Shown here in pieces: positions 895-31,520 of a stretch of DNA of 33,975 bases (the stretch's first letter is position 1; every line of letters begins with the position of its first letter). Under the pieces are notes generated by a model that had not been told where the DNA came from, searched no databases, and worked only from the letters and a program-made list of their open reading frames with translations. The position numbers and the translations under genes were made by a program. The DNA is from Actinomycetota bacterium (lineage in GTDB: Bacteria; Actinomycetota; Acidimicrobiia; Acidimicrobiales; RAAP-2), in the NCBI GenBank assembly GCA_021324355.1, contig JAJPJD010000001.1:1-33975 (forward strand), in the 5' to 3' direction.

Positions 895-2613
895 CTACTT
901 CGATCCAGGCGCAGTGAACAACGGTGGCAAAGTCGCCGGCCAGTTGTTCAGCGAGAATCGCTTGCCGCCAAAGACCGGGATGTAGGTGCCCTTCTGGCCA
1001 TTGATCGGCGAGGTGGCATTGGCGTCCCAGTAGACCCAGCGGTCGTCGGTGATCGCGGTGTGGTCCCCGGTCCCGGGCTTGCCGCTTGGGCCCGAGTTCC
1101 ACGACCACGCCCCGTAGACGTAGCTGGGAGCCCCAAGCGTAGGCAGGGCGTGGACGCCCCGAGCCAGGTTCTGCGGCGTGAGGTCAGGACCAGCGGCCTG
1201 CAGGGCGTCGAAGATCCACACGAGGGTGCTGTAGTCACCGTCGGTCCCCGGCGGGATGGTGTGCCCGGTGAGCTGCTTGTAGAGCTTGCCGGCCGGGCTG
1301 TTCGGCCCGAAGAAGGTGTTCTCCGGAGAGGCCTCGCTCAGGCCGAACAGGGTTCCAGTGACCTCGGCCTGGTCGTAAGTCTGTGCGACCGTGTCCGTGT
1401 CGTCGAGCGCAACCCCGTTCAGAAGCCACTCTGGGTGGTAGTCCTGAGCCGCAGCAGCCTTGGTCAGCAGGGAAAGAGAGAACGAGTCACACGCGGTGAT
1501 GATCGTCGTCACCCCTGCTGCCTTGAAGGCCACGATGGCCTGTTGTGCCGAAGTCTGGAAGGTCGCGATGTCGAGACCGTAGGTGAAGACATGGAAGTCT
1601 GACCGGGGCACGTGATAGTGCTGAACCGAATAGTTAATGGACTCCTTCACGCACAAGCCATACGTGGGTAGGTTGGGAACGTAGATACCAAAAACACGCT
1701 TCTTGGTGCGCAGAGCTGGGTCACCTGCGTAAATCGCTGGCTTGTTGTCGAGGTACTTGCCGTACACCTGTCCGGTCATGACGGCGATCCGCTGGCACTC
1801 CTGCGGAATTCCCCAAACGTAGGGGTTGTACTGCTCGTACCAGGCCTCATCGAAGTAGGCCCCACCGTCGAACTCGACCAGACCATCCTTGGCCGCGCAC
1901 ACAGAGAAGGGCCCCGTTCCGCCAGCACCCTGGCCGTTCGGGTCGAGCGTGAAGTCCACTTCACCGAAGGCGTGCAGCGTGTGGGCGATGGTGTCCGCGT
2001 CGGCGCAGGCTTGCGACTGGTTCCCGTTGAGCAGCTCAGCCGTGTAGTTGCTCACTGAGTGTTCTTCAACGAGATTCACATGGCGACCATAGAGGTCGTA
2101 GACCTTGTTGAAGTAGTTGACGAACACCTTCGCAACTTGGTCTGTGACCGCGGGCAGAGCAATGCCCTCCTGCTTTGCGACAGCTACCTGCTCCTGATAG
2201 TTGGCGGTCTGCGGAAAGGTCCGCATTGCGAGAGTGATGGTGTTGCCGGTCACGCCGTTGTACGTGGCTCCCCCGTTGTTCCCCGTCCACTTGGCGACGC
2301 ACGGATCTGCATATGGGGAGTTGAATTGAGGCTTACCGGGACTGCAGGTGAAGCCAGCAATGGTCTTGCCAGTTCCCACCTTCACACTGCCTGATCCCGG
2401 ATACTTCCACGGGTACGGCCCCTCGCCAGGAGGGCCTGACTTCGCGAGCACTGGCCCATCTGACGTCGCGCTCGCTCCCCCACTGGTCGCAGGCACAACA
2501 CCGATTGCTAGGGAGATCACCGCGACCACCCCAGCAAAGCGCATCAACCGACTCCAGCCGCTTCGGTGGGGTTGCCAACGAAGACGATCCCCTCTCACAG
2601 CGTCTCTCTGCAT
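895..2613 (-). CDS. Secreted type-I periplasmic-binding-fold protein (branched-chain amino acid/amide-type solute-binding protein), copy 1
   Basis: This 572-residue protein resembles substrate-binding proteins of the branched-chain amino acid/amide ABC-uptake class (type-I periplasmic binding fold). The ATG at 2613 was chosen over an upstream GTG at 2673 because AAGGGGG sits about 7 bases before it. The N-terminus has a basic stretch, a hydrophobic core (VVAVISLAIGVVPA) and an AxA-like end, so a Sec signal is likely. No lipobox cysteine is visible, unlike most Gram-positive binding proteins. A mature-end block (GEGPYPWKYP, then CSPGKPQFNSPY and KWTGNNGGATYNGV) is shared with the divergent paralogue at 3085-4806. 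No permease or ATPase gene lies nearby, so it may act with a distant transporter or as a stand-alone sensor. Ligand unknown. Confidence 0.85.
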   Translation of the reverse strand: MQRDAVRGDRLRWQPHRSGWSRLMRFAGVVAVISLAIGVVPATSGGASATSDGPVLAKSGPPGEGPYPWKYPGSGSVKVGTGKTIAGFTCSPGKPQFNSPYADPCVAKWTGNNGGATYNGVTGNTITLAMRTFPQTANYQEQVAVAKQEGIALPAVTDQVAKVFVNYFNKVYDLYGRHVNLVEEHSVSNYTAELLNGNQSQACADADTIAHTLHAFGEVDFTLDPNGQGAGGTGPFSVCAAKDGLVEFDGGAYFDEAWYEQYNPYVWGIPQECQRIAVMTGQVYGKYLDNKPAIYAGDPALRTKKRVFGIYVPNLPTYGLCVKESINYSVQHYHVPRSDFHVFTYGLDIATFQTSAQQAIVAFKAAGVTTIITACDSFSLSLLTKAAAAQDYHPEWLLNGVALDDTDTVAQTYDQAEVTGTLFGLSEASPENTFFGPNSPAGKLYKQLTGHTIPPGTDGDYSTLVWIFDALQAAGPDLTPQNLARGVHALPTLGAPSYVYGAWSWNSGPSGKPGTGDHTAITDDRWVYWDANATSPINGQKGTYIPVFGGKRFSLNNWPATLPPLFTAPGSK

Positions 2614-3084
2614 CAATTGCCCCCTTTTGCAGCAAGGCACTTCCCCGCATGCGCCACGTCCCTCGACTGACACCGCACCCGAAGGACGTGGCGGACATTG
2701 TTCTTGCTACTGTCACCCGGCGCAAGAGCGCCCCCTACCTCCTAACTTCTTCTCATCTGCGAACGACCGCGGTCACTAGCGTGCCGTCAACGCGTGCCGA
2801 GTGGCACGTGTCCCCAAGGACGCCACCTTGGGGACACGTGCCTGCAGGTCAATAGTCGTCCAAAGCTTCTCGAGCTCGGCATGGGTACAGCGCGCGGTCG
2901 TCGTGCGGCTGACGCGACCCGGGACAAGTGCGAAGGTATCTGATGATAGTCAGTTTTTTAACCAGGGAAAATCCATGTCATCGGACACAGGTTGCTCTCG
3001 GATGACAAACGTGTTACGACGTGTGGGAACGATTCGACAAATGGCCGATCGGACGATTCGAGCCGAAGGGGAGGGGCGGCTGAA
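2614..3084. promoter_or_regulatory. Shared control region between two divergent binding-protein genes
   Basis: This 471-bp gap separates the starts of two diverging paralogues. It holds a perfect 17-bp hairpin (2803-2842), two direct GCGTGCC repeats (2779-2785 and 2792-2798), and an AT-rich patch with a T run near 2941-2975 that could serve transcription toward the right-hand gene. A 49-codon ORF at 2975-3124 has a plausible AGGGAAA site and overlaps the right-hand start in another frame. It might be a leader peptide or chance. No clear -35/-10 pair could be fixed. Confidence 0.5.
2803..2842. repeat. Perfect 17-bp inverted repeat in the divergent promoter region
   Basis: The arms 2803-2819 and 2826-2842 are exact reverse complements around a 6-base loop. 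Each arm contains the self-complementary CACGTG and a CCCC/GGGG run. It lies 189 bp from one start and 242 bp from the other, so it does not end either gene. No T-tract follows. It could be an operator, an attenuator for a leader transcript, or a relic of a small palindromic element. Confidence 0.8.
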
Positions 3085-4806
3085 ATGTCGGAACGCGGAC
3101 GGCGTCAATCGGAACGCACGCTGAGAGGCGAGCACACAAGTCCTCGACGAACAACCCACCTCGGCGCTCGCGCCGTCCTAGCTGCCGTTGCTATTCCGGT
3201 TGTGTTGCTGATGGCAGTGGTCCCGCCAGTCGGAGCGGCAAAGGCAAAGGGAGAAGGGCCTTACCCGTGGAAGTATCCCGCGAGCGGCAACGTGCAAGTA
3301 GGTACCGGAAAGACAATCAGTGGTCAGCCATGCAGTCCAGGCAAGGGACAGTTCAACTCTCCCTACGCCGCTCCGTGCATCGCCAAGTGGACCGGCAACA
3401 ACGGGGGCGCGACCTACAATGGCGTGACGGCGACAACGATCACTCTGGCGATGCGGTCGTTCCCGCAGACTGCGAACTCTCAGGAACTAGCTGCTCAAGC
3501 AAAGAATGAGGGAATTGCCGTGCCAGCGGTGACCGACCAGGTGGCTCAGGTCTTCCTGAACTACTTCAACAAGGTCTACGACCTGTATGGGCGCCACGTG
3601 AAGCTCGTCGAAGAAGATGCTGTCGGTAACGCAACGACCGAAGCATTGAACGGCGGCCAGGCACAGGCGTGCGCAGACGCTGACACCATCGCTCACACGC
3701 TGCACGCCTTCGGCGAAGTCGGGTTCACTCTTGATCCAAACCGAGTCGGGGGTGGCGGAACTGGACCATTCTCAATCTGCGCAGCTGAGCGAGGGTTGGT
3801 CGAATTTGCGGGTGGTCCATACTTCTCCGAGCAGTGGTTCGAGCAGTACAACCCGTACGTCTGGAACATCACACAGGACTGTCAACGGATTAGCAGCAAC
3901 GAAGCAGAGATCATCGCAAAGTACCTGGCTGGGAAGAAAGCCATCTACGCTGGCGAGGCGGACCTTCGCGACAAGATCCGCAAAATCGGGACGTACATTC
4001 CGAACGTGCAGCAGTACATCGAGTGCAATGGCAATCCGAACAGCTCGATGAACAAACTCCTCGAAACCAAGTACCACCTCCCGGCTAGCACGGCTCCAGA
4101 CTTCTTCACCTACAACCTCGATGTGTCGACATTCCAGCAGTCGGCGCAACAGGCGGCGGTGAAGTTCAAGGCGGATGGCGATACCACGATCAACCTGGCC
4201 TGCGATCCCTACTCGGCATCGCTGCTCATGAAGGCCGCGGCTGCTCAGAACTACTTCCCCGAGTGGCTCTCCGACGGCGTGGCACTCGAGGATACAGATT
4301 CAGTGGCGCAGACCTTCCCTGCTAACGAGGCACAGGGGCACCTGTTCGGGGTGGCAGAAGCCCCACCGCAACAACTTCTCTTCGGGCCCACCTCGCTAGC
4401 TGGGCAGCTCTACCAGAAGCTCACGGGACACGCGATTCCACCGGGAACCGACGGGGAGTACTACCAGCTCGTTCAAATCTTTGACCAACTGCAGGCAGCT
4501 GGGCCTGACCTGACACCACAGAACATGGCCCGGGGCACCCACGCGCTCCCGGTCCTCGGCAATACTTCTGACGGCCTCTGGGATTTCAGGACTGGCCCCA
4601 CCGGGACCCCCAACGCGGGTGATCACACGGCGATTGTGAACGACATGTTCGTCTACTGGAACCAGAACGCCACCTCGCCCGTCAACAATAAGCCTGGAAC
4701 CTACGTGGACCTCTTCGGAGGCAAAAGGTTCACGATCGGGCAATGGCCGAAGACGCTTCCGAAGCTCTTCACGGCTCCAGGCTCTGCTGCTACCAGCACG
4801 AGCTGA
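3085..4806 (+). CDS. Secreted type-I periplasmic-binding-fold protein, copy 2
   Basis: This 573-residue paralogue of the divergent protein encoded at 895-2613 aligns by eye over nearly the whole length, with well over half of positions the same (for example GTGKTI, KWTGNNGGATYNGV, ADADTIAHTLHAFGEV and LFTAPGS near the end). The ATG at 3085 follows GAGGGGCGG by about 8 bases; an upstream TTG at 2992 in frame lacks such a site. A hydrophobic segment at about residues 32-50 with an A-rich end suggests Sec export; again no lipobox cysteine is seen. The expected role is binding a small solute outside the membrane. The two copies differ mainly in loops around the middle of the protein, which fits divergence of ligand preference after duplication, but that is inference. 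Confidence 0.85.
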   Translation: MSERGRRQSERTLRGEHTSPRRTTHLGARAVLAAVAIPVVLLMAVVPPVGAAKAKGEGPYPWKYPASGNVQVGTGKTISGQPCSPGKGQFNSPYAAPCIAKWTGNNGGATYNGVTATTITLAMRSFPQTANSQELAAQAKNEGIAVPAVTDQVAQVFLNYFNKVYDLYGRHVKLVEEDAVGNATTEALNGGQAQACADADTIAHTLHAFGEVGFTLDPNRVGGGGTGPFSICAAERGLVEFAGGPYFSEQWFEQYNPYVWNITQDCQRISSNEAEIIAKYLAGKKAIYAGEADLRDKIRKIGTYIPNVQQYIECNGNPNSSMNKLLETKYHLPASTAPDFFTYNLDVSTFQQSAQQAAVKFKADGDTTINLACDPYSASLLMKAAAAQNYFPEWLSDGVALEDTDSVAQTFPANEAQGHLFGVAEAPPQQLLFGPTSLAGQLYQKLTGHAIPPGTDGEYYQLVQIFDQLQAAGPDLTPQNMARGTHALPVLGNTSDGLWDFRTGPTGTPNAGDHTAIVNDMFVYWNQNATSPVNNKPGTYVDLFGGKRFTIGQWPKTLPKLFTAPGSAATSTS

Positions 4807-4970: not shown

Positions 4971-5645
4971 CTAACGCCAGATCGCGCCGATGCGCTCCGA
5001 ACCAGGAGGAAACGCAGCGGCCCGACGTCGCGCAATTCGATCAGCCGTCCAGGCGACGATGGCGGCGTCGAGAACGTCGGCGGTGCCGGCACCACCGGCG
5101 ACCCCAAGGTCCTCAGGGATCCGCAGACCTTGATCAGCCAGAATTTGCTTTCGCTGGAATACCCCATTCCATGAGGTTTTGGGCCACTTCAGGTGCTGGT
5201 CATTGTTTGCGCAAACAAAGGAGACCTCTGGATGCACTTCATGGATCCGCCCATCAGACAAAGCTAGCGTCTGAACCTCGAGGATAGCCTTGCGTAGAGC
5301 GAAGGCCTGCGCTGAGATTTTTGGGCCCTCTCGAGGACTAAGTGCCATGGCCTCGCTGTAACTTGCGGCACGCACCATGGCTTCGGGCGGGGCCGGAAAA
5401 ACCGAGGGCCATCGAGGACCAACGTAATCTCGGGCCAGCTGGTCCGCCAGACGCCGCTGGCCGAGTCTTGGGAGCCCGATCGGGACATCAACTCCGATGA
5501 TCGCGGCGTCTTCGAGCTCGTACTGGAATACCTCTTGAAGGCTCATGGCGACGAGGGCTAGCTCGAACCGACCGTTCTCCAGAACGACGATGACCCACCT
5601 CCCCTTCCAGATGTCAGCTCCAGCTACTCGCAAAGGATTCGCCAC
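4971..5645 (-). CDS. DUF429 family protein (predicted RNase H-like fold)
   Basis: This 224-residue protein carries the signature positions of the DUF429 family: an N-terminal VAGADIWKGRWVIVV strand with an acidic residue, VDVPIGLP at about residues 53-60, EVHPEVSF in the middle, and a C-terminal DVLDAAIVAWTA helix. The spaced acidic residues fit the RNase H-like fold proposed for the family; its biochemical role is unestablished. The gene starts 33 bp after the stop of the cell-wall-binding gene on the same strand, so the two are probably co-transcribed. A hairpin at 4816-4855 could end the transcript. Confidence 0.8.
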   Translation of the reverse strand: MANPLRVAGADIWKGRWVIVVLENGRFELALVAMSLQEVFQYELEDAAIIGVDVPIGLPRLGQRRLADQLARDYVGPRWPSVFPAPPEAMVRAASYSEAMALSPREGPKISAQAFALRKAILEVQTLALSDGRIHEVHPEVSFVCANNDQHLKWPKTSWNGVFQRKQILADQGLRIPEDLGVAGGAGTADVLDAAIVAWTADRIARRRAAAFPPGSERIGAIWR

Positions 5646-19226: not shown

Positions 19227-20846
19227 ATGGAGGGGGTTCGTAACTACGACGCAATCGTCATTGGCGCTGGATTCTCCGGCCTGTACGCCGTCTACTCGCT
19301 CAGAGAGGCAGGGTTCAGCGTCCGAGCGCTGGAGAAAGCAGACGGCGTGGGTGGCACCTGGTATTGGAACCGCTACCCAGGAGCGCGTTGCGATGTCCAG
19401 AGTATTGAGTACTCCTACAGCTTCAGCAAGGAGATCCAAGAGGAGTGGGAATGGACCGAGCTGATGCCGGCCCAGCCCGAGATCGAGGCATACCTCAACT
19501 TTGTCGCGGATCGGCTCGACTTACGAAAAGACATTGAGTTGTCGACCCGGGTCACAGCGATGACTTTTGATGAGTCCAGCAACACCTGGTTCATTGAAAC
19601 GGATCGGGGTCAGAATTTCGTTGCTCGCTGGGTGATCGCTGGCACCGGCTGTCTTTCGGAGCCACTCGAGCCGGACCTTCCAGGCCTGGACACCTTCAAG
19701 GGAGTTCAACTCTTCACGAACCGTTTCCCCAAGGAAGGTTTTGATTTCACTGGGCACCGAGTGGGCGTAATCGGAACGGGTTCCTCTGGTGTCCAATGCA
19801 TCCCCATCATTGCCGAGGCCGCTGACCACCTCTACGTCTTCCAACGTTCAGCTGCGTACAGCCGACCTGCCAACAACCGACCACTTCGGCCCGGCGAGCT
19901 TGAAGGGGTGAAGGCTAACTACGAGGAACTTCGAATCAAGCAGCGCAACGCGTTTGCCGGGCTGGTGAGCTTCGGTGCTGTTTCCTTCGAAGGACTCAAG
20001 CCGCCAGAACGCCGAATTCTCGAAACTCCGATTGAAGAGCGAATGAAGGTTCTCGACGAGCTTGGTTGGAGTGCACCAGCCGCCTGGGCAGACGTGATGT
20101 TCGACCTTGAGGCTAACCGCGCTGGAACCGAGCTCTACGGAGAACTTATCCGTAGGGTCGTCAAGGACCCTGACGTCGCCGAGTCACTGGTTCCCCACTA
20201 CCCGATGGGCTGCAAACGCCAGATCCTCGATACCGGGTACTTCGAGACCTTCAATCGTGACAACGTTACCCTGGTGGATCTGCGGAAAGAGCCAATCGAG
20301 CGCATCACTGCAAACTCTGTCGACACCATTCGGAGTTCGTATGAGCTCGACGTTCTTGTTCTCGCGACTGGATTCGACGCCATGACCGGCGCGTTAAACC
20401 GTATCGACATCCGCGGCAGGGATGGAAGGACTCTTCGTGATGTATGGACCACAGAAGGCCCGGTCAGCTACCTCGGGCTTCAGGTCGCCGGCTTCCCGAA
20501 CCTCTTCACCGTGACTGGGCCTGGAAGTCCATCCGTCCTTAGCAATATGGTCGTCTCAATTGAACAGCACGTGGAATGGATCACTGACTGCCTTGTCTTC
20601 CTGCGTGAGCATGGGTTGAACACCATCGAGGCAGAGCCTGATGCTCAGGCCGCGTGGGTTGAACATGCTGCCTCATTGGTCGAAGGGACGATCAGAAATT
20701 CCGAGGGCTGCAACTCGTGGTATCTAGGCGCCAATGTTCCTGGTAAAAAGCGTATCCACATGCCCTACACTGGCGGACTACCCGCATATCGCCGAAAGTG
20801 CGACGAGGTAGCCGCGACAGGGTATTCGGGCTTCTCGCTGAGCTAA
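19227..20846 (+). CDS. Flavin-containing monooxygenase, Baeyer-Villiger type but with altered fingerprint
   Basis: This 539-residue protein has an FAD Rossmann motif (GAGFSG, 13-18), the GGTWYWNRYPGARCD segment (43-56) found in Baeyer-Villiger monooxygenases, and an NADPH Rossmann motif (GTGSSG, 183-188). The class fingerprint FxGxxxHxxxW(P/D) appears at 157-168 as FKGVQLFTNRFP: Phe, Gly and Pro are kept, but the His is Phe163 and the Trp is Phe167. The family inserts oxygen next to ketones using NADPH and O2; here the activity may differ. AGGGG lies just before the ATG. The 3' end overlaps the convergent sirtuin gene by 4 bp. Confidence 0.88.
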   Translation: MEGVRNYDAIVIGAGFSGLYAVYSLREAGFSVRALEKADGVGGTWYWNRYPGARCDVQSIEYSYSFSKEIQEEWEWTELMPAQPEIEAYLNFVADRLDLRKDIELSTRVTAMTFDESSNTWFIETDRGQNFVARWVIAGTGCLSEPLEPDLPGLDTFKGVQLFTNRFPKEGFDFTGHRVGVIGTGSSGVQCIPIIAEAADHLYVFQRSAAYSRPANNRPLRPGELEGVKANYEELRIKQRNAFAGLVSFGAVSFEGLKPPERRILETPIEERMKVLDELGWSAPAAWADVMFDLEANRAGTELYGELIRRVVKDPDVAESLVPHYPMGCKRQILDTGYFETFNRDNVTLVDLRKEPIERITANSVDTIRSSYELDVLVLATGFDAMTGALNRIDIRGRDGRTLRDVWTTEGPVSYLGLQVAGFPNLFTVTGPGSPSVLSNMVVSIEQHVEWITDCLVFLREHGLNTIEAEPDAQAAWVEHAASLVEGTIRNSEGCNSWYLGANVPGKKRIHMPYTGGLPAYRRKCDEVAATGYSGFSLS

Positions 20847-21655
20847 CCACAGAGGTCTACCCTGCCTTCATGATTGGAGGGTTCTCTGGGTACACCAACG
20901 ATCGTGGGAAGCGATCTGGAGATCGACTCCCTGACCACGACTTCAGCGATGTCGTCATACGGCGTCGGCTGCTCGTTGACGATTACAACCTTCGCTCCGT
21001 GCGCAACTGACAGCGGAACTAGGCCCGCAGCAGGGTAGACACCAAGGCTCGTACCGACAACGAGGAGCAAATCACAGTTGACGACCGCGTGCTCAGCTCT
21101 TCGGAGAACTGACGGGAGGAGTGGTTGCCCAAAGCTGATGGTCGCCGATTTGAGAATCCCACCGCAGCTGAGACAGGCGGGGTCCTCGTCCCCCTGACGA
21201 ACTCGTTCGAGCGTCGGACCTGCTGGTTGCCTGACTCCGCAAGAGAGGCACACAACCTCTCGAAATGTGCCATGGAGTTCTACGACTCGAGCTGGGTTAT
21301 TCCCCGCGAGCTGGTGGAGACCATCGATGTTTTGTGTAAGCAGCATGTTGAGCTTCCCTCGGCGCTCAAGATGAACAAAGGCCCGATGGCCACTATTCGG
21401 CTGTGCTTTCCAGATCGGCGAGGTAAGTCGATTACGCCAGGCGCGCCGCCTGACTTCTGCATCACCCAGGTATGCGTCCAAGGTTGCTAGGCGTTCAGCT
21501 TCTGGATCCCTTGTCCAAATCCCTTGGGGCCCGCGGTAGTCAGGAATCCCTGAATCGGTGGATATTCCGGCTCCAGTCAAACCAACTATTCGATCGGCCG
21601 TGGCAATGATTGACTTTGCGGCAAGGATCGGGTCTGGGAAACCAGGATCTGACAT
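20843..21655 (-). CDS. Sirtuin NAD-dependent protein deacylase
   Basis: This 270-residue Sir2-family enzyme shows GAGIS (28-32), GIPDYRG (36-42), TQNIDGLH (107-114) and the catalytic His128 in ELHG. A zinc site is formed by Cys136/Cys139 and Cys161/Cys164. A C-terminal Rossmann part holds VVGTSLGVYPAAGL. It removes acyl groups from lysines using NAD+. The gene converges on the monooxygenase gene, with the two stop codons overlapping (20843-20846). Start ATG at 21655 follows AAGGG. Sirtuins often regulate metabolic enzymes; a link to the neighbouring catabolic genes is possible but unshown. Confidence 0.93.
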   Translation of the reverse strand: MSDPGFPDPILAAKSIIATADRIVGLTGAGISTDSGIPDYRGPQGIWTRDPEAERLATLDAYLGDAEVRRRAWRNRLTSPIWKAQPNSGHRAFVHLERRGKLNMLLTQNIDGLHQLAGNNPARVVELHGTFREVVCLSCGVRQPAGPTLERVRQGDEDPACLSCGGILKSATISFGQPLLPSVLRRAEHAVVNCDLLLVVGTSLGVYPAAGLVPLSVAHGAKVVIVNEQPTPYDDIAEVVVRESISRSLPTIVGVPREPSNHEGRVDLCG

Positions 21656-21983: not shown

Positions 21984-22430
21984 TCACGACACAGCGGTTC
22001 TCACCAAGACGGCGATTTTCTCCGCGACCTCTCGACTCCATTTTACGATGGCGTAGGACACTGGCCACATAGCGCCGTCGTCGAGTTGGGCGGCATCTTG
22101 AAACTCGAGCGTCGAGTAGCGAGTGTTGAACTTTCCCGAGTTCTTGAAAGCGACGACGATCTTGCCGTCGGCGTTCGCATAGGCGGGCATCCCATACCAG
22201 GTCTTTGCTGACAGCCCCGGTGCATTCGAGGTGATGATGGCGTGCACCCTCTCGCCGAGGGCACGGTCCTCTGGGTTCATGCGGGCAATGGCGTCGAGGG
22301 CAGCTTGGAGCTCATCAGCCCTTTTTCTTCCCTTTTTGCTCTCGGCACGCAGCTCGGCGGCACGCTCCTTCATGGCGGCGCGCTCCGCATCACTGAAGCC
22401 ATCGGCCTGCGTCGGTCTGCGATCTGCCAT
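21984..22430 (-). CDS. DUF1801 (YdhG-like) family protein
   Basis: This 148-residue protein has a charged helical N-terminus (to about residue 60) and then a DUF1801 domain: ITSNAPGLSAKTWYGMPAY, KIVVAFKNSGKFNTRY and MWPVSYAI are typical. Members have been linked to iron handling or stress but have no firm activity. AAAGGAG sits 6 bases before the ATG, a very strong start. A small ORF ends 45 bp upstream on the same strand, so both may be one operon. Confidence 0.85.
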   Translation of the reverse strand: MADRRPTQADGFSDAERAAMKERAAELRAESKKGRKRADELQAALDAIARMNPEDRALGERVHAIITSNAPGLSAKTWYGMPAYANADGKIVVAFKNSGKFNTRYSTLEFQDAAQLDDGAMWPVSYAIVKWSREVAEKIAVLVRTAVS

Positions 22431-22475
22431 CTAACACTCCTTTCATGGCCCTCATACGGTGGAGATCGGATCTTC

Positions 22476-22721
22476 TCAAAGCTCGTCGAGTCGGTTCTTG
22501 ATCCTGCGAGACCAGCTCAAGAGCACGATGGGATGCTCCTCCGGTCTCATTATCGCGGCGTGTGCCTCCTCGATGACACTGTCGCTCCCGGCGGCTGCTG
22601 GGTGCAAGTGTCCGTCCCGGACGATCTCTCGCCGGTAGCAGCCTGATCGGCCGGTTCGCGATGCCACCAAGAAGGCGGCCACGATGACTTGCTCGCCGTC
22701 CTGCTCCAACGCGCTCGCCAT
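22476..22721 (-). CDS. Small hypothetical protein
   Basis: An 81-codon frame starts at ATG 22721 with a weak AGG upstream and ends 45 bp before the DUF1801 gene. The predicted product starts MASALEQDGEQVIVAAFLVA and later reads IMRPEEHPIVLLSWSRRIKNRL, which is a plausible globular sequence. I do not recognise a family. The same-strand, short-gap position before DUF1801 supports it; GC-rich chance frames in this area argue for caution. Confidence 0.45.
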   Translation of the reverse strand: MASALEQDGEQVIVAAFLVASRTGRSGCYRREIVRDGHLHPAAAGSDSVIEEAHAAIMRPEEHPIVLLSWSRRIKNRLDEL

Positions 22722-22796
22722 CTTGGCCTGAACAGATCCTCACCGATCTGGTCAGGCGGAGTTCTCGGCAGCCAAAGGCGCGGCTAGCCGCTCGGC

Positions 22797-22823
22797 TGTC
22801 ACACCACGGCAGGCATCGGCGTC
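22797..22823 (+). promoter_or_regulatory. ECF41-type promoter (TGTCACA-N16-CGTC)
   Basis: TGTCACA at 22797-22803 and CGTC at 22820-22823 are separated by exactly 16 bases, 31 bp before the GTG of the oxidoreductase gene that overlaps an ECF41 sigma gene. As I recall, this is the recognition pattern reported for ECF41 sigma factors. A small 6-bp hairpin (22825-22840) follows at the likely transcript start. AGGGAGG at 22843-22849 is the ribosome site. Confidence 0.75.
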
Positions 22824-22854
22824 TAGTTGTCGAAACAACTTCAGGGAGGTCCCC

Positions 22855-24138
22855 GTGAAAGGCAAGTGCAATGTCGAGGTGGTGGTCGTCGGAGCGGGGC
22901 TTGCCGGGCTGACGGCGGCAGTCGTGGCAGCGCTTGATGGAGCGTCGGTCGTGCTGTGCGACGTGCGTGCGCTGGGAGGCCGAGCACGAAGCCATACGCG
23001 GGAAGGCTTCATCCTAAACCAAGGGCCCCACGCCCTCTACCGCACCGGCGCCGGTGCTGGAGTGCTCAGCCGACTGGGTGTCGACTTCAGCGGGTCGCCT
23101 CCACACCGAGCGGCCTTTGGGTACACGGAGGCGGGCAGCCTCGCGGTGCTTCCCACCTCGGCCGGGTCCCTGCTCCGCTCCTCAGTGCTCGGCGTCTTCG
23201 ACAAAGTCCGATTCGCTCGGCTGCTCGCGAGGGTGCAGCGGCTTGAGCCAGCCTCGTTCGCCAAAATGAGCGCCGCCGAGTGGGTCGCCTCGCTCGGCCT
23301 CAGCTCCCGGGGTGCTCGTGTCATCTCCGCACTCACGCGGGTCGCGACGTACGCCGGTGACCTCGATCTTGTCTCTGGTGACGCCGCCGTCGCCCAGCTG
23401 CAGCTCGCCCTCAGAGGGGTCCTCTACCTCGACGGCGGCTGGCAGTCCCTCGTCGAAGGTCTAAGGGCCACCGCAACTTCCTCTCGGGTGAGGGTCCTTG
23501 AGTGCGAGCAGGCGACCGAACTCCACGCCAGAGCGGACGGTACCTTCGAGGTGCGGACGTCAGCAAGGACCCTACAGGCGGCCTCGGTCGTGGTCGCCGG
23601 CGGCAGCCCGGCGGCAGCACGAGCGCTACTTCCCCGTCCTCCCGCATGGGAGCTCGGCGCGCCGGCAACGGCAGCCTGCCTCGACCTTGGCCTCTGCCGG
23701 CTGCCAACCACCATGGTGGCCTTTGGGCTCGACCAGCCGCTCTACCTCTCTACCCACAGCCCGAAGGCCTGCCTCGCTCCCCCCGGCGGGGCGGTCGTCC
23801 ACGTCATGCGCTACGGCGCCCGGATCTCCACTGACGACAGAGCCCAGCTGTGGGAGCTCGCGCGGCGCTGCGGTATAGGCGACCGCGATGTCGTTGTCCA
23901 GCGGTTCCTTCACGAGATGACGGTCTGTCATGCCCTGCCACGCCCCGGATCGGGGCTCCGTGGACGTCCGTCCATCGACGCGACCGGCACGGACGGAGTG
24001 TTCATAGCCGGTGACTGGGTTGGTTCGGTGGGCCTCCTCGCCGATGCTTCAATCGCCAGCGGGGAGGCTGCTGGGCGAGCCGCTTCGCAGCGCGCGAAGC
24101 GCCAGCGTGCCCTGGGTAGCGCGATGGTGGGGCCATGA
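22855..24138 (+). CDS. FAD-dependent oxidoreductase (phytoene desaturase/amine-oxidase-like)
   Basis: This 427-residue flavoprotein begins with the FAD Rossmann motif VVVGAGLAGLTAA (about 10-22), has RALGGRARSHTREGF soon after, and ends with the FAD-contact segment GVFIAGDWVGSVGLLADASI. This fits the NAD(P)/FAD amine-oxidase/phytoene-desaturase superfamily; the substrate is unknown. The GTG start follows AGGGAGG at a good distance. Its end overlaps the ECF41 sigma gene by ATGA (24135-24138), so the two are coupled. ECF41 genes commonly sit beside carboxymuconolactone decarboxylases, oxidoreductases or epimerases, and this gene fits the oxidoreductase role. Confidence 0.87.
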   Translation: MKGKCNVEVVVVGAGLAGLTAAVVAALDGASVVLCDVRALGGRARSHTREGFILNQGPHALYRTGAGAGVLSRLGVDFSGSPPHRAAFGYTEAGSLAVLPTSAGSLLRSSVLGVFDKVRFARLLARVQRLEPASFAKMSAAEWVASLGLSSRGARVISALTRVATYAGDLDLVSGDAAVAQLQLALRGVLYLDGGWQSLVEGLRATATSSRVRVLECEQATELHARADGTFEVRTSARTLQAASVVVAGGSPAAARALLPRPPAWELGAPATAACLDLGLCRLPTTMVAFGLDQPLYLSTHSPKACLAPPGGAVVHVMRYGARISTDDRAQLWELARRCGIGDRDVVVQRFLHEMTVCHALPRPGSGLRGRPSIDATGTDGVFIAGDWVGSVGLLADASIASGEAAGRAASQRAKRQRALGSAMVGP

Positions 24139-25001
24139 ACACCGCCGACGAGGTCTTCGCTGCCGAGCGACCGCGACTGCTCGGCCTCGCGTACCGCATT
24201 CTCTCGAGCTACACCGACGCCGAGGACGTCGTCCAGGAGTCCTGGATCCGCTGGCAGGGCATCGAGGTCAACACGATCGAACATCCCGTGGCTTACCTCA
24301 CGACCATCGTCACCCGTCTGGCACTCGATCGAGCCCGAACAATCGCCCGCCGGCGGGAACACTACGTAGGGCCATGGCTCCCCGAGCCAATCGCCATCCA
24401 ACGAACTCCCGAGGACCACGCCGAGATTGCCGAATCTCTCACGCTCGGGTTCCTGATGGTGCTAGACCGCCTCAGCCCGACTGAGCGTGCCGTGTGGCTG
24501 CTCGCCGATGTCTTCGGAGAGCCCTACGGGCTCATCGCCTCGGCCGTCGGCAAAAGTGAGGCAGCCTGCCGCCAGATCGCTGCTCGAGCGCGCCGACGTC
24601 TACGCGAAGAACGTCCTGAACCACCACAACGACTGGACCCGAGACTCTTACGACAGCTCTTGGCCGCCGTGAGCACCGGCGACCTCAAGGGGACCTTGGA
24701 GCTGCTTCATGCCGACGTCGTGCTCATAAGTGACGGCGGCTCCGAGCACCGTGCTGCCCGCCACCCCGTCGTCGGAGCAGATCGTGTAGCTCGCCTCGCC
24801 ATCAACCTCTCCCGCCGAGGCGAGATGACTTCCATTCGAGAGGCGACAGTCAACGGAGCAGCCGCATTTGTTGTCGAGGTCAACGGATCCATGCCTATCG
24901 TCATCACTGGCGAGCAGCACGAGGGGAAAATCACCTGCATCTATCTGCTCTTGAACGAAGACAAGCTCGGCAGTCTCGCTGCCAATCCGGTAATTACCTA
25001 A
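24135..25001 (+). CDS. sigJ: ECF41-group sigma factor with fused SnoaL-like regulatory domain
   Basis: This 288-residue sigma factor has region 2 (about 5-75, with DAEDVVQESWIRW), region 4 (about 100-160, with LSPTERAVWLLADVFG) and a C-terminal SnoaL-like domain (about 165-288). The ECF41 signatures are present: WLPEP (81-85) in the linker, DGGSE (200-204) for the DGGG box, and NEDKL (274-278) for the NPDKL box. The last two deviate slightly. In ECF41 factors the C-terminal domain replaces an anti-sigma factor and adjusts activity. The promoter-like site at 22797 ahead of the operon suggests the factor drives its own genes. Confidence 0.93.
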   Translation: MNTADEVFAAERPRLLGLAYRILSSYTDAEDVVQESWIRWQGIEVNTIEHPVAYLTTIVTRLALDRARTIARRREHYVGPWLPEPIAIQRTPEDHAEIAESLTLGFLMVLDRLSPTERAVWLLADVFGEPYGLIASAVGKSEAACRQIAARARRRLREERPEPPQRLDPRLLRQLLAAVSTGDLKGTLELLHADVVLISDGGSEHRAARHPVVGADRVARLAINLSRRGEMTSIREATVNGAAAFVVEVNGSMPIVITGEQHEGKITCIYLLLNEDKLGSLAANPVIT

Positions 25002-25160
25002 GCGAAGAGCGCGGTGACAGCCCGGAACCTGAGGATCGTGGCCGTCGAGTCGAACGTCCTCGAGAGCCCCCTTGTTGCGCCAGATGCATTGGTGCTTCAT
25101 GGCTCCGGGCAGAGACCGGGAAAGCCAACGTCCGAGAACCCCCGTCGCGTGAGAGGTTTC

Positions 25161-25185
25161 TGCCCCGGTCAACTTGCCCGGGGCA
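25161..25185 (+). terminator. Hairpin downstream of the sigma factor gene
   Basis: An 8-bp GC-rich stem (25161-25168 with 25178-25185) with a 9-base loop lies 160 bp after the sigma gene stop. No T-tract is present. It is plausible as an operon terminator, but the distance weakens the case. Confidence 0.45.
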
Positions 25186-25211
25186 CCAACTCAAAGTAAC
25201 CGCCGTCGAGC

Positions 25212-25521
25212 GACCGGACCTACGCGTCCGTCTTCGTGATCCCTGGCCGTGACGAGACGGGCTGGAAACACCGCAATCGCCGGGCTCGTCATCGGCCTCG
25301 CGCTCAACGCTGGTGCACCTCATCGGATCCCGATGGACGGCGCCTCGGTCAACCCGGCCCGAAGCCTCGGCCCCTCCCTCTTCGTGGGGAGCAGCGCCCT
25401 CGACCAGCTGTGGGCCCACCTCGTTGCTCCGCTCGTCGGTGGCGGCCTTTCGGCGCTCGTCTACGACCTCTTCTACCGCAAAGACGAAGAGGGAGCATCG
25501 CCCGAGGAGCAAGCGCGCTGA
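25212..25521 (+). pseudogene. aqpZ: C-terminal remnant of an aquaporin (MIP family), frameshifted
   Basis: The frame from 25249 reads AGNTAIAGLVIGLAL, then SVNPARSLGPSLFVG (the second NPA motif of aquaporins) and the last membrane helix QLWAHLVAPLVGGGLSALVYDLF. The first half of the protein is absent. Between LAL and IPMDG the expected family sequence TLVHLIG appears only in the +1 frame, so a base seems gained near 25305 and one lost near 25326. A further shift near 25247 joins SVFVI in another frame to the VTRRAGNT stretch. Aquaporins are channels of about 230-250 residues with two NPA motifs; one is left here. Sequencing errors could explain single shifts but not the missing half. Confidence 0.8.
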
Positions 25522-30859: not shown

Positions 30860-31520
30860 CAGGTACGGTCCTGGCTCCACTAGCCTGGGGATACCACCGC
30901 ATCCACGGTAAGCCCGCCACCATGGGCATCGCGATCGCCCCTCGAGCGTCTGGGCGATCCTGAAGCGCCACGACATCGAGCCGTCGCCGCAAAGGTCAGG
31001 ACCAACCTGGGCGGAGTTCCCCGCCGCGCAGGCGAAGGGACTGATGGCCTGTGACTTCTTCCACGTCGACACCGTTCTTCTCCGCAGGCTCTACGGGCTG
31101 GTGTCGCCTCGTCCGCATCGCCGGCATCACGAGAAACCCAGTCGCTGGCTAGGTGACCCAGTGCGCCCGCAACCTGTCGATGGATCTCGCCGAGCGCGCG
31201 AACCCGGTCAAGTTCCTCGTCGCCGCCGAGGATACGAAGGTCATCAAGACCCCTCATCAGAGCACCGCGTGCCAACGCCATCTGCGAGCGCGTCAGCGGC
31301 ACGTTGCAGCGAGTGCCTCGACCGGACGCTCGCTCACGGCCGCCGCCATCTGGAGGCCATGCTCGCCGAGTGCGCGAGCACTACAACGCGCACCGTCCGC
31401 ACCGCCATCTCCGTCAACGCGCGCCCTCCGCGCTCGACACCAGCCCTGCGCTGATCAGCGATTTCGACCCTACCAGGCTACGAAGAACCGATCTCCTGGG
31501 CGGCCTCATCCACGCCGCCG
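30860..31520 (+). pseudogene. Decayed integrase-core (rve, IS3/IS481-like) transposase
   Basis: Pieces of one transposase appear in order but in changing frames: WGYHRIHGKPATMG (about 30886-30930), SSVWAILKRHDIEPSPQRSG (from about 30943), ACDFFHVDTVLLRRLYGLV (about 31047), ARNLSMDLAERANPVKFLV (about 31165), then CLDRTLAHGRRHLEAMLAE and EHYNAHRPHRHLRQRAP (to about 31430), and LRRTDLLGGLIH near 31500. At least three frame changes and a stop after the NPVAG segment (about 31149) break it. Of the DDE residues, the first Asp and the final Glu (CERV) can still be placed. The element is long dead; no terminal repeats were found. Confidence 0.8.

Follow-up and report, generated by a model that had tools for sequence, protein, structure and literature searches.

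ECF41 sigma factors have been studied in Bacillus licheniformis and Rhodobacter sphaeroides. According to the accessible text of Wecke 2012 (PMC3426412), the ECF41 proteins studied use the promoter TGTCACA-n16-CGTC, and no target was found other than the adjacent COE gene or operon. Shortening the C-terminal extension in part raised activity about 20-fold in B. licheniformis and 120-fold in R. sphaeroides, deleting it altogether abolished activity, and the same text reports no ECF41 phenotype in two species; in the portion of a review that deals with the group, some members are credited with protection against oxidative stress (PMC8103513). The commonest COE layout given in the survey, >COE> >ECF>, accounted for 107 loci (29%), in 97 of which the promoter preceded the COE gene, and this is also the layout of the locus described here.

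The two characterized systems, ecf41Bli-ydfG and ecf41Rsp-RSP_0606 (as presented in the accessible text of PMC3426412), share with this locus the promoter, the WLPEP linker and the fused C-terminal domain; in all three a redox-type gene adjoins the sigma gene as its reported or predicted target, and no anti-sigma gene was seen in the unit. Their partner is a carboxymuconolactone decarboxylase, whereas here it is an FAD enzyme of amine-oxidase fold. SigJ of Mycobacterium tuberculosis (PDB 5xe7) has sigma2, sigma4 and SnoaL_2-type domains in common with the present protein, while its boxes read DSNGK and NPDKF instead of DGGSE and NEDKL. SigG1 of Streptomyces tsukubaensis (ECF56, PDB 7qh5), the next fold match after SigJ, also carries a SnoaL-type C-terminal domain; it differs in that, according to the accessible text of PMC7730460, it lacks NPDKL and is controlled by RsfG, which is encoded beside it.

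Here we describe an operon in a stretch of 33,975 nucleotides (the window) from the actinomycetotal assembly GCA_021324355.1 (contig JAJPJD010000001.1). Well formed and ordinary for the ECF41-COE group, the operon is duplicated in the host assembly.

Results

Promoter and organization of the operon

The initial annotation had placed a TGTCACA-N16-CGTC site 31 bp before a two-gene operon, as an exact fit to the known ECF41 recognition pattern, and had described the genes as overlapped by ATGA. Inspection of the sequence bore out each of these points. The site matched exactly the pattern TGTCACA-n16(+/-1)-CGTC expected before a COE or sigma gene, with 31 nt between it and the GTG at 22855, and the ATGA at 24135-24138 combines the oxidoreductase stop codon TGA (24136-24138) with the sigma start codon ATG (24135-24137) (Table 1). 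This was the single match in the whole window, and dinucleotide shuffles of the window gave on average 0.01 matches to the exact N16 pattern and 0.08 when spacers of 14-18 were allowed.

Table 1. Positions of the operon features in the window
Feature	Position	Strand	Basis or remark
Predicted ECF41 promoter	22797..22823	+	Exact match; like sites upstream in relatives
-35 element TGTCACA	22797-22803	+	Followed by a 16-nt spacer
-10 element CGTC	22820-22823	+	
Likely ribosome-binding site AGGGAGG	22843..22849	+	5 nt 5' of the GTG start
FAD-dependent oxidoreductase gene	22855..24138	+	427 aa; GTG start
ECF41 sigma gene	24135..25001	+	288 aa; fused C-terminal SnoaL-like domain
Linker YVGPWLPEP, between sigma2 and sigma4	24363..24389	+	Residues 77-85; motif as named in PMC7730460 (accessible text)
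DGGSE, where a DGGGK box is expected	24732..24746	+	Alignment of paired sigma factors
NEDKL, where NPDKL is expected	24954..24968	+	Alignment of paired sigma factors

The nearest relatives (loci L012, L014 and L015) had a similar purine-rich ribosome site in the same place and a similar start. DNA similarity between the window and the second host copy on contig C18, the genome G018 and Aciditerrimonas began 11-20 nt 5' of the promoter and ended between 24968 and 25052, and the more distant G021 matched the window over 22818-24967; at the sequence level, the operon unit seems to end after the sigma gene. Neither a third gene nor an anti-sigma gene was seen in the conserved unit of oxidoreductase and sigma factor, and the search of the window against Rfam gave 0 matches at the gathering threshold.

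Elsewhere in the window, two divergent genes, 895-2673 (-) and 2992-4806 (+), encode long proteins with common stretches, GEGPYPWKYP and NNGGATYNGVT among them, and as a guess from these sequences they may be paralogous secreted binding proteins. A flavin monooxygenase-like gene (FMO-like, Pyr_redox_3) at 19227-20846 (+) converges with a Sir2-family gene at 20843-21655 (-), the two overlapping by 4 nt. The region 30884-31514, which may be a decayed transposase, has one part with 69.5% similarity to DNA that lies some hundreds of bases 5' of the G018 operon copy and one part with 77% similarity to the beginning of contig C12.

Other promoter sites and a second operon copy in the host genome

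A scan of the host genome (2.445 Mb) for further TGTCACA-N16-CGTC sites, which the initial annotation had proposed, revealed two perfect sites and none for the pattern read backwards. The second, at C18:3963-3989 on the minus strand, is followed by a second operon copy. For 11 fixed bases and both strands, simple arithmetic gives a chance expectation of about 1.2. The concern that the pattern might occur by chance genome-wide was thus justified for the number of sites (2 against 1.2), which is weak evidence, but not for their placement directly before the operon copies, which is strong. The looser pattern TGTCACA-N15..17-SGTY showed no enrichment (4 sites against 3 read backwards), TGTCAC-N17-CGTC occurred at 3 sites, and allowing up to one mismatch gave 150 sites against 86 read backwards, too many to use. 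A wider regulon in the host was considered and rejected, as its candidate sites (C39:185867, C3:49755 and C21:12131) all lie inside long reading frames.

The enzyme and the sigma factor of the second copy were, respectively, 79% and 79-80% identical to those of the window, and its genes are joined by GTGA instead of ATGA. The dN/dS between the copies was 0.17 for the sigma gene and 0.25 for the enzyme gene, values that show, as far as sequence divergence can, purifying selection on the host copies. C18 is a contig of 13.7 kb in an assembly of 64 contigs for which 1.42% contamination is given. It may be an older location of the operon or a stray (contaminating) contig, because its sigma factor resembles that of G018 (84.0%) more than that of the window (79.2%) and the TetR gene beside the C18 copy is partly shared with the G021 operon neighbourhood.

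The second copy (locus L009 = G000:C18, 1775-3990) is flanked by two direct repeats at 771-1265 and 5053-5520, of about 470-495 nt in three blocks that are 80-91% alike, and these reach into a gene that is presumably SRPBCC-like and into the first part of a TetR-type gene (PF00440). A third SnoaL-type ECF sigma gene was observed at L009 5944-6822; its product is 36% identical to the window sigma factor and has HVPDP where WLPEP is expected, and its 3.8-kb locus L005 contained no TGTCAC-N15..19-CGT[CT].

Conservation of the gene pair and of the promoter

Among the 61 genomes of the relatives search (E <= 1e-20), 11 had the enzyme, as did 11 of 396 sampled from the phylum (E <= 1e-40); the host is counted in both sets, and the distribution of the enzyme is therefore patchy. 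In the 61 related genomes it adjoined an ECF41 gene at 11 of 12 places (window and second copy counted); the exception, L020, has the enzyme and the motif and no sigma gene within 1.5 kb. Both genes lay within 1 kb of each other at 9 of 20 loci in named genomes, including those of Aciditerrimonas ferrireducens, two Acrocarpospora, Nocardiopsis listeri and three Bacillota (Marininema, Metabacillus and Paenibacillus piri), and several of the 11 loci without the pair were remote or cut-off enzyme matches. When 79 genomes of the order were searched for the sigma factor, 16 of them had it, at 26 places in all, and at 13 of these places the enzyme lay alongside.

Repeat views of one place were counted once (L003, L054; L004, L044; L045, L059; L046, L063; L056; L061; L067), which gave 32 distinct oxidoreductase-ECF41 pairs from Actinomycetota and Bacillota, the window and C18 included, 27 with the enzyme gene first and 5 with the sigma gene first. 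In a zone reaching from 340 nt upstream of the enzyme match to 30 nt inside it, TGTCAC-N16..18-CGT[CT] was present in 29 of the 32, and the strict form TGTCACA-N15..17-CGTC in 19; among the controls, the site appeared in 8 of 6400 single-base shuffles of the upstream stretches and in none of 96 stretches taken from coding sequence or the reverse strand. Since the pairs are related, some of them closely, 29/32 measures conservation and not 32 independent events. The pairs without the motif as defined were L017 (CGTCACA at -35), L021 (CGAC at -10) and L047.

Thirteen enzyme-only loci were kept apart from this count. The motif was found at L020, L031 and L053, the last two of which end with the contig on the far side, and was absent from L026, L033, L036 and L043; the remaining six (L035, L037 and L039-L042) gave no enzyme match at the script threshold and stood outside the motif test. 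Upstream of the enzyme gene at five loci (L016, L017, L018, L020 and L023), the CGTC is followed after about 8-9 nt by an ATG, an arrangement of the sequence that suggests leaderless messages. In the window operon, by contrast, a leader containing a ribosome site precedes the enzyme gene.

The 2 perfect genome matches, near the naive ~1.2, could be taken to mean that the promoter match is coincidental and that the operon is read from another upstream promoter. We consider this extremely improbable, as both sites lie directly before operon copies, a like site precedes nearly all of the pairs (29/32), and a scan of 22400-25300 for sigma70-like promoters found no consensus site of that type. Sequence, relatives and fold together support the ECF41 identity, the operon and the self-promoter.

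Family and predicted fold of the sigma factor

The sigma factor matched Pfam Sigma70_r2 (47.5 bits, cut-off 24) and r4_2 (34.1 bits, cut-off 25.7), so that both the sigma2 and sigma4 regions of an ECF41 protein were recognized. Its SnoaL_2 match stayed below the Pfam cut-off (19.1 vs 27), and that to the NCBIfam model SigX4 below the cut-off of that model (293.7 vs 323.25), while the cut-off of the SigJ model NF007214 was exceeded (291.7 vs 271). The nearest PDB sequence was SigJ of M. tuberculosis (5xe7, E 2.4e-44), which also came first in the fold search, at 33% identity in the Foldseek alignment; the whole-chain overlay was loose (TM 0.42, rmsd 10.4). The model itself was fair (pLDDT 74, pTM 0.50), with linker residues 73-105 below 50. 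Fold matches of the C-terminal domain included ketosteroid isomerases and a SnoaL-like enzyme with a substrate mimic. The SnoaL-like C-terminal extension of about 100 residues that characterizes ECF41 was thus recognized by the SigJ family model, by the full-length sequence match and by an NTF2/SnoaL-type fold.

Signature boxes and strength of the brake

The sigma factor was confirmed to contain WLPEP, DGGSE and NEDKL as first annotated. The changes in the last two boxes are real, although they proved not to be distinctive. An alignment was made of the 32 paired sigma factors, of which 31 were usable, the misaligned L050 being left out. WLPEP was kept in 27, and the window protein has the YVGPWLPEP linker of ECF41 intact. 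At the place of DGGSE, which we take to be the position of the box named DGGGK, the sequence is DGGPD in C18, G018 and Aciditerrimonas and DAGPD in G021. The DGGGK lysine was missing in 21/31 and present in only 10/31, so this box is no strict ECF41 criterion. The NPDKL proline was missing in five of the 31, namely the window, C18, G018, G021 and L027; it was kept in G003, from the genus of the window (NPAKT), in G017, from its family (NPDKT), and in Aciditerrimonas (NPEKL), all three with the same operon as the window. NEDKL retains the N, D, K and L of the box, the lysine being present in all 31. Judged from this alignment, the DGGSE and NEDKL changes are drift shared in the lineage.

With the NPDKL proline and the DGGGK lysine missing, the strength of autoinhibition is uncertain. 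In the accessible text of PMC7730460, the described brake is the contact by which NPDKL ties the SnoaL domain to the YVGPWLPEP linker, and the loss of the proline in the grouped window, C18, G018 and G021 proteins and in L027, together with the frequent loss of the lysine, would fit a lineage in which autoinhibition has weakened, the sigma factor is partly always active and the module acts mainly by dosage. This appears quite unlikely: the linker and the lysine of the NPDKL box are kept, purifying selection acts between the host copies, and G003, G017 and Aciditerrimonas keep the proline with the same operon.

The oxidoreductase

The oxidoreductase matched Pfam Amino_oxidase (PF01593, E 3.2e-13) above the cut-off and supplies the link to an oxidoreductase, carboxymuconolactone decarboxylase or epimerase that is expected of an ECF41 factor. 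Its AlphaFold model was good (pLDDT 91), and the best solved match (VIA-align) was 3ka7 (Z 33.8, rmsd 2.9 over 386 residues, 16% identity), followed by 3nrn, a bacterial monoamine oxidase, phytoene desaturase and putrescine oxidase; identities among the matches listed ranged from 13 to 21%. The N-terminal region has a GAGLAG FAD-type motif, the glycines of which do not vary among 12 family members. From this sequence match and the modelled fold, with its FAD-binding N-terminus, the protein is assigned to the flavin amine oxidoreductase superfamily, sharing the whole fold with 3ka7, 3nrn, monoamine oxidases, phytoene desaturase and protoporphyrinogen oxidase. Classical amine oxidases have a catalytic lysine. 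The window enzyme differs from the listed structures in its low identity, and the 12-sequence alignment of its family has no invariant lysine. The label 'amine oxidase' describes the fold of the enzyme. No NCBIfam family reached its own cut-off among the matches listed (25 of 50), and a substrate therefore cannot be named.

The initial annotation had suggested that, with an amine-oxidase-like partner, the signal handled could differ from that of better-known ECF41 loci. The idea that such a partner sets this locus apart was not supported, since Amino_oxidase is already among the ECF41 partner domains in the accessible list of Wecke 2012 (PMC3426412) and further Actinomycetota, as well as Bacillota, have the same pair; a claim of novelty on this ground was rejected. 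A literature search with few subscription papers gave no title on an ECF41-amine oxidase pair among the matches listed, which is no proof of absence.

Sigma phylogeny and exchange of the enzyme

The sigma tree comprised 37 rows, with the paired L050 and L066 and the unpaired L007, L069, L073, L074, L075, L076 and L077 left out. The window, C18, G018 and G021 grouped together (94/79; tree drawn open). Paired and unpaired sigma factors were mixed, with 4 label changes, a value as low as which was reached in 0 of 500 shuffles. The sigma factor of the L070 module (862-2331) was sister to that of the paired L025 (96/85), and its partner is a carboxymuconolactone decarboxylase (PF02627, E 2.5e-10), not a flavoenzyme, with a perfect TGTCACA-N16-CGTC before the decarboxylase gene. 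The sigma type and the promoter are thus retained when the enzyme is exchanged, in agreement with an enzyme that is the target and not a fixed partner; on these sequences, the enzyme is the exchangeable part of the module.

The tight ATGA coupling, the co-occurrence of the pair over two phyla and the ligand pocket made plausible, in the model, by the ketosteroid isomerase and SnoaL-like enzyme matches would all suit an oxidoreductase that takes part in sensing, by making or removing the SnoaL ligand or by touching the sigma factor, so that the enzyme would close the loop. We regard this as possible but rather unlikely, because the exchange at L070, with a decarboxylase behind the same promoter, argues against a fixed partnership, and co-expressed YdfG had no significant effect on Ecf41Bli activity, as reported in the accessible text of Wecke 2012 (PMC3426412).

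Discussion

Sequence comparison established the gene order and overlap, the promoter match, the conservation of promoter and pair, the domain make-up and the purifying selection. The locus is very probably a two-gene, self-activating ECF41 module, braked by its SnoaL domain and released by a ligand, with the flavoenzyme as output and not as regulator. In such a module, the sigma factor and RNA polymerase would recognize TGTCACA-N16-CGTC and transcribe the oxidoreductase gene and then the sigma factor's own gene, coupled through ATGA. The fused SnoaL-like domain would restrain the sigma factor through contact of the distal NPDKL-like box with the YVGPWLPEP linker, a small ligand or state would relax this brake, and the FAD oxidoreductase would be the output enzyme. 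By analogy with the studied systems, the sigma factor would use this promoter, would be autoinhibited and would have the enzyme only as a target.

Because the host has two copies with near-identical promoters, each host sigma factor probably fires both module promoters. A more elaborate version, in which the two modules cross-activate as a coupled positive-feedback switch, tuned by a weakened NPDKL brake, and the flavoenzyme adjusts the level of the SnoaL ligand, is speculative, and we give it little credence.

The signal is not settled for most members of the widespread ECF41 group. The operon leaves the picture of the group unchanged and adds to it a well-bounded flavoenzyme version of ECF41, which occurs twice in one genome, is shared by members of two phyla and offers compact pairs for reporter assays.
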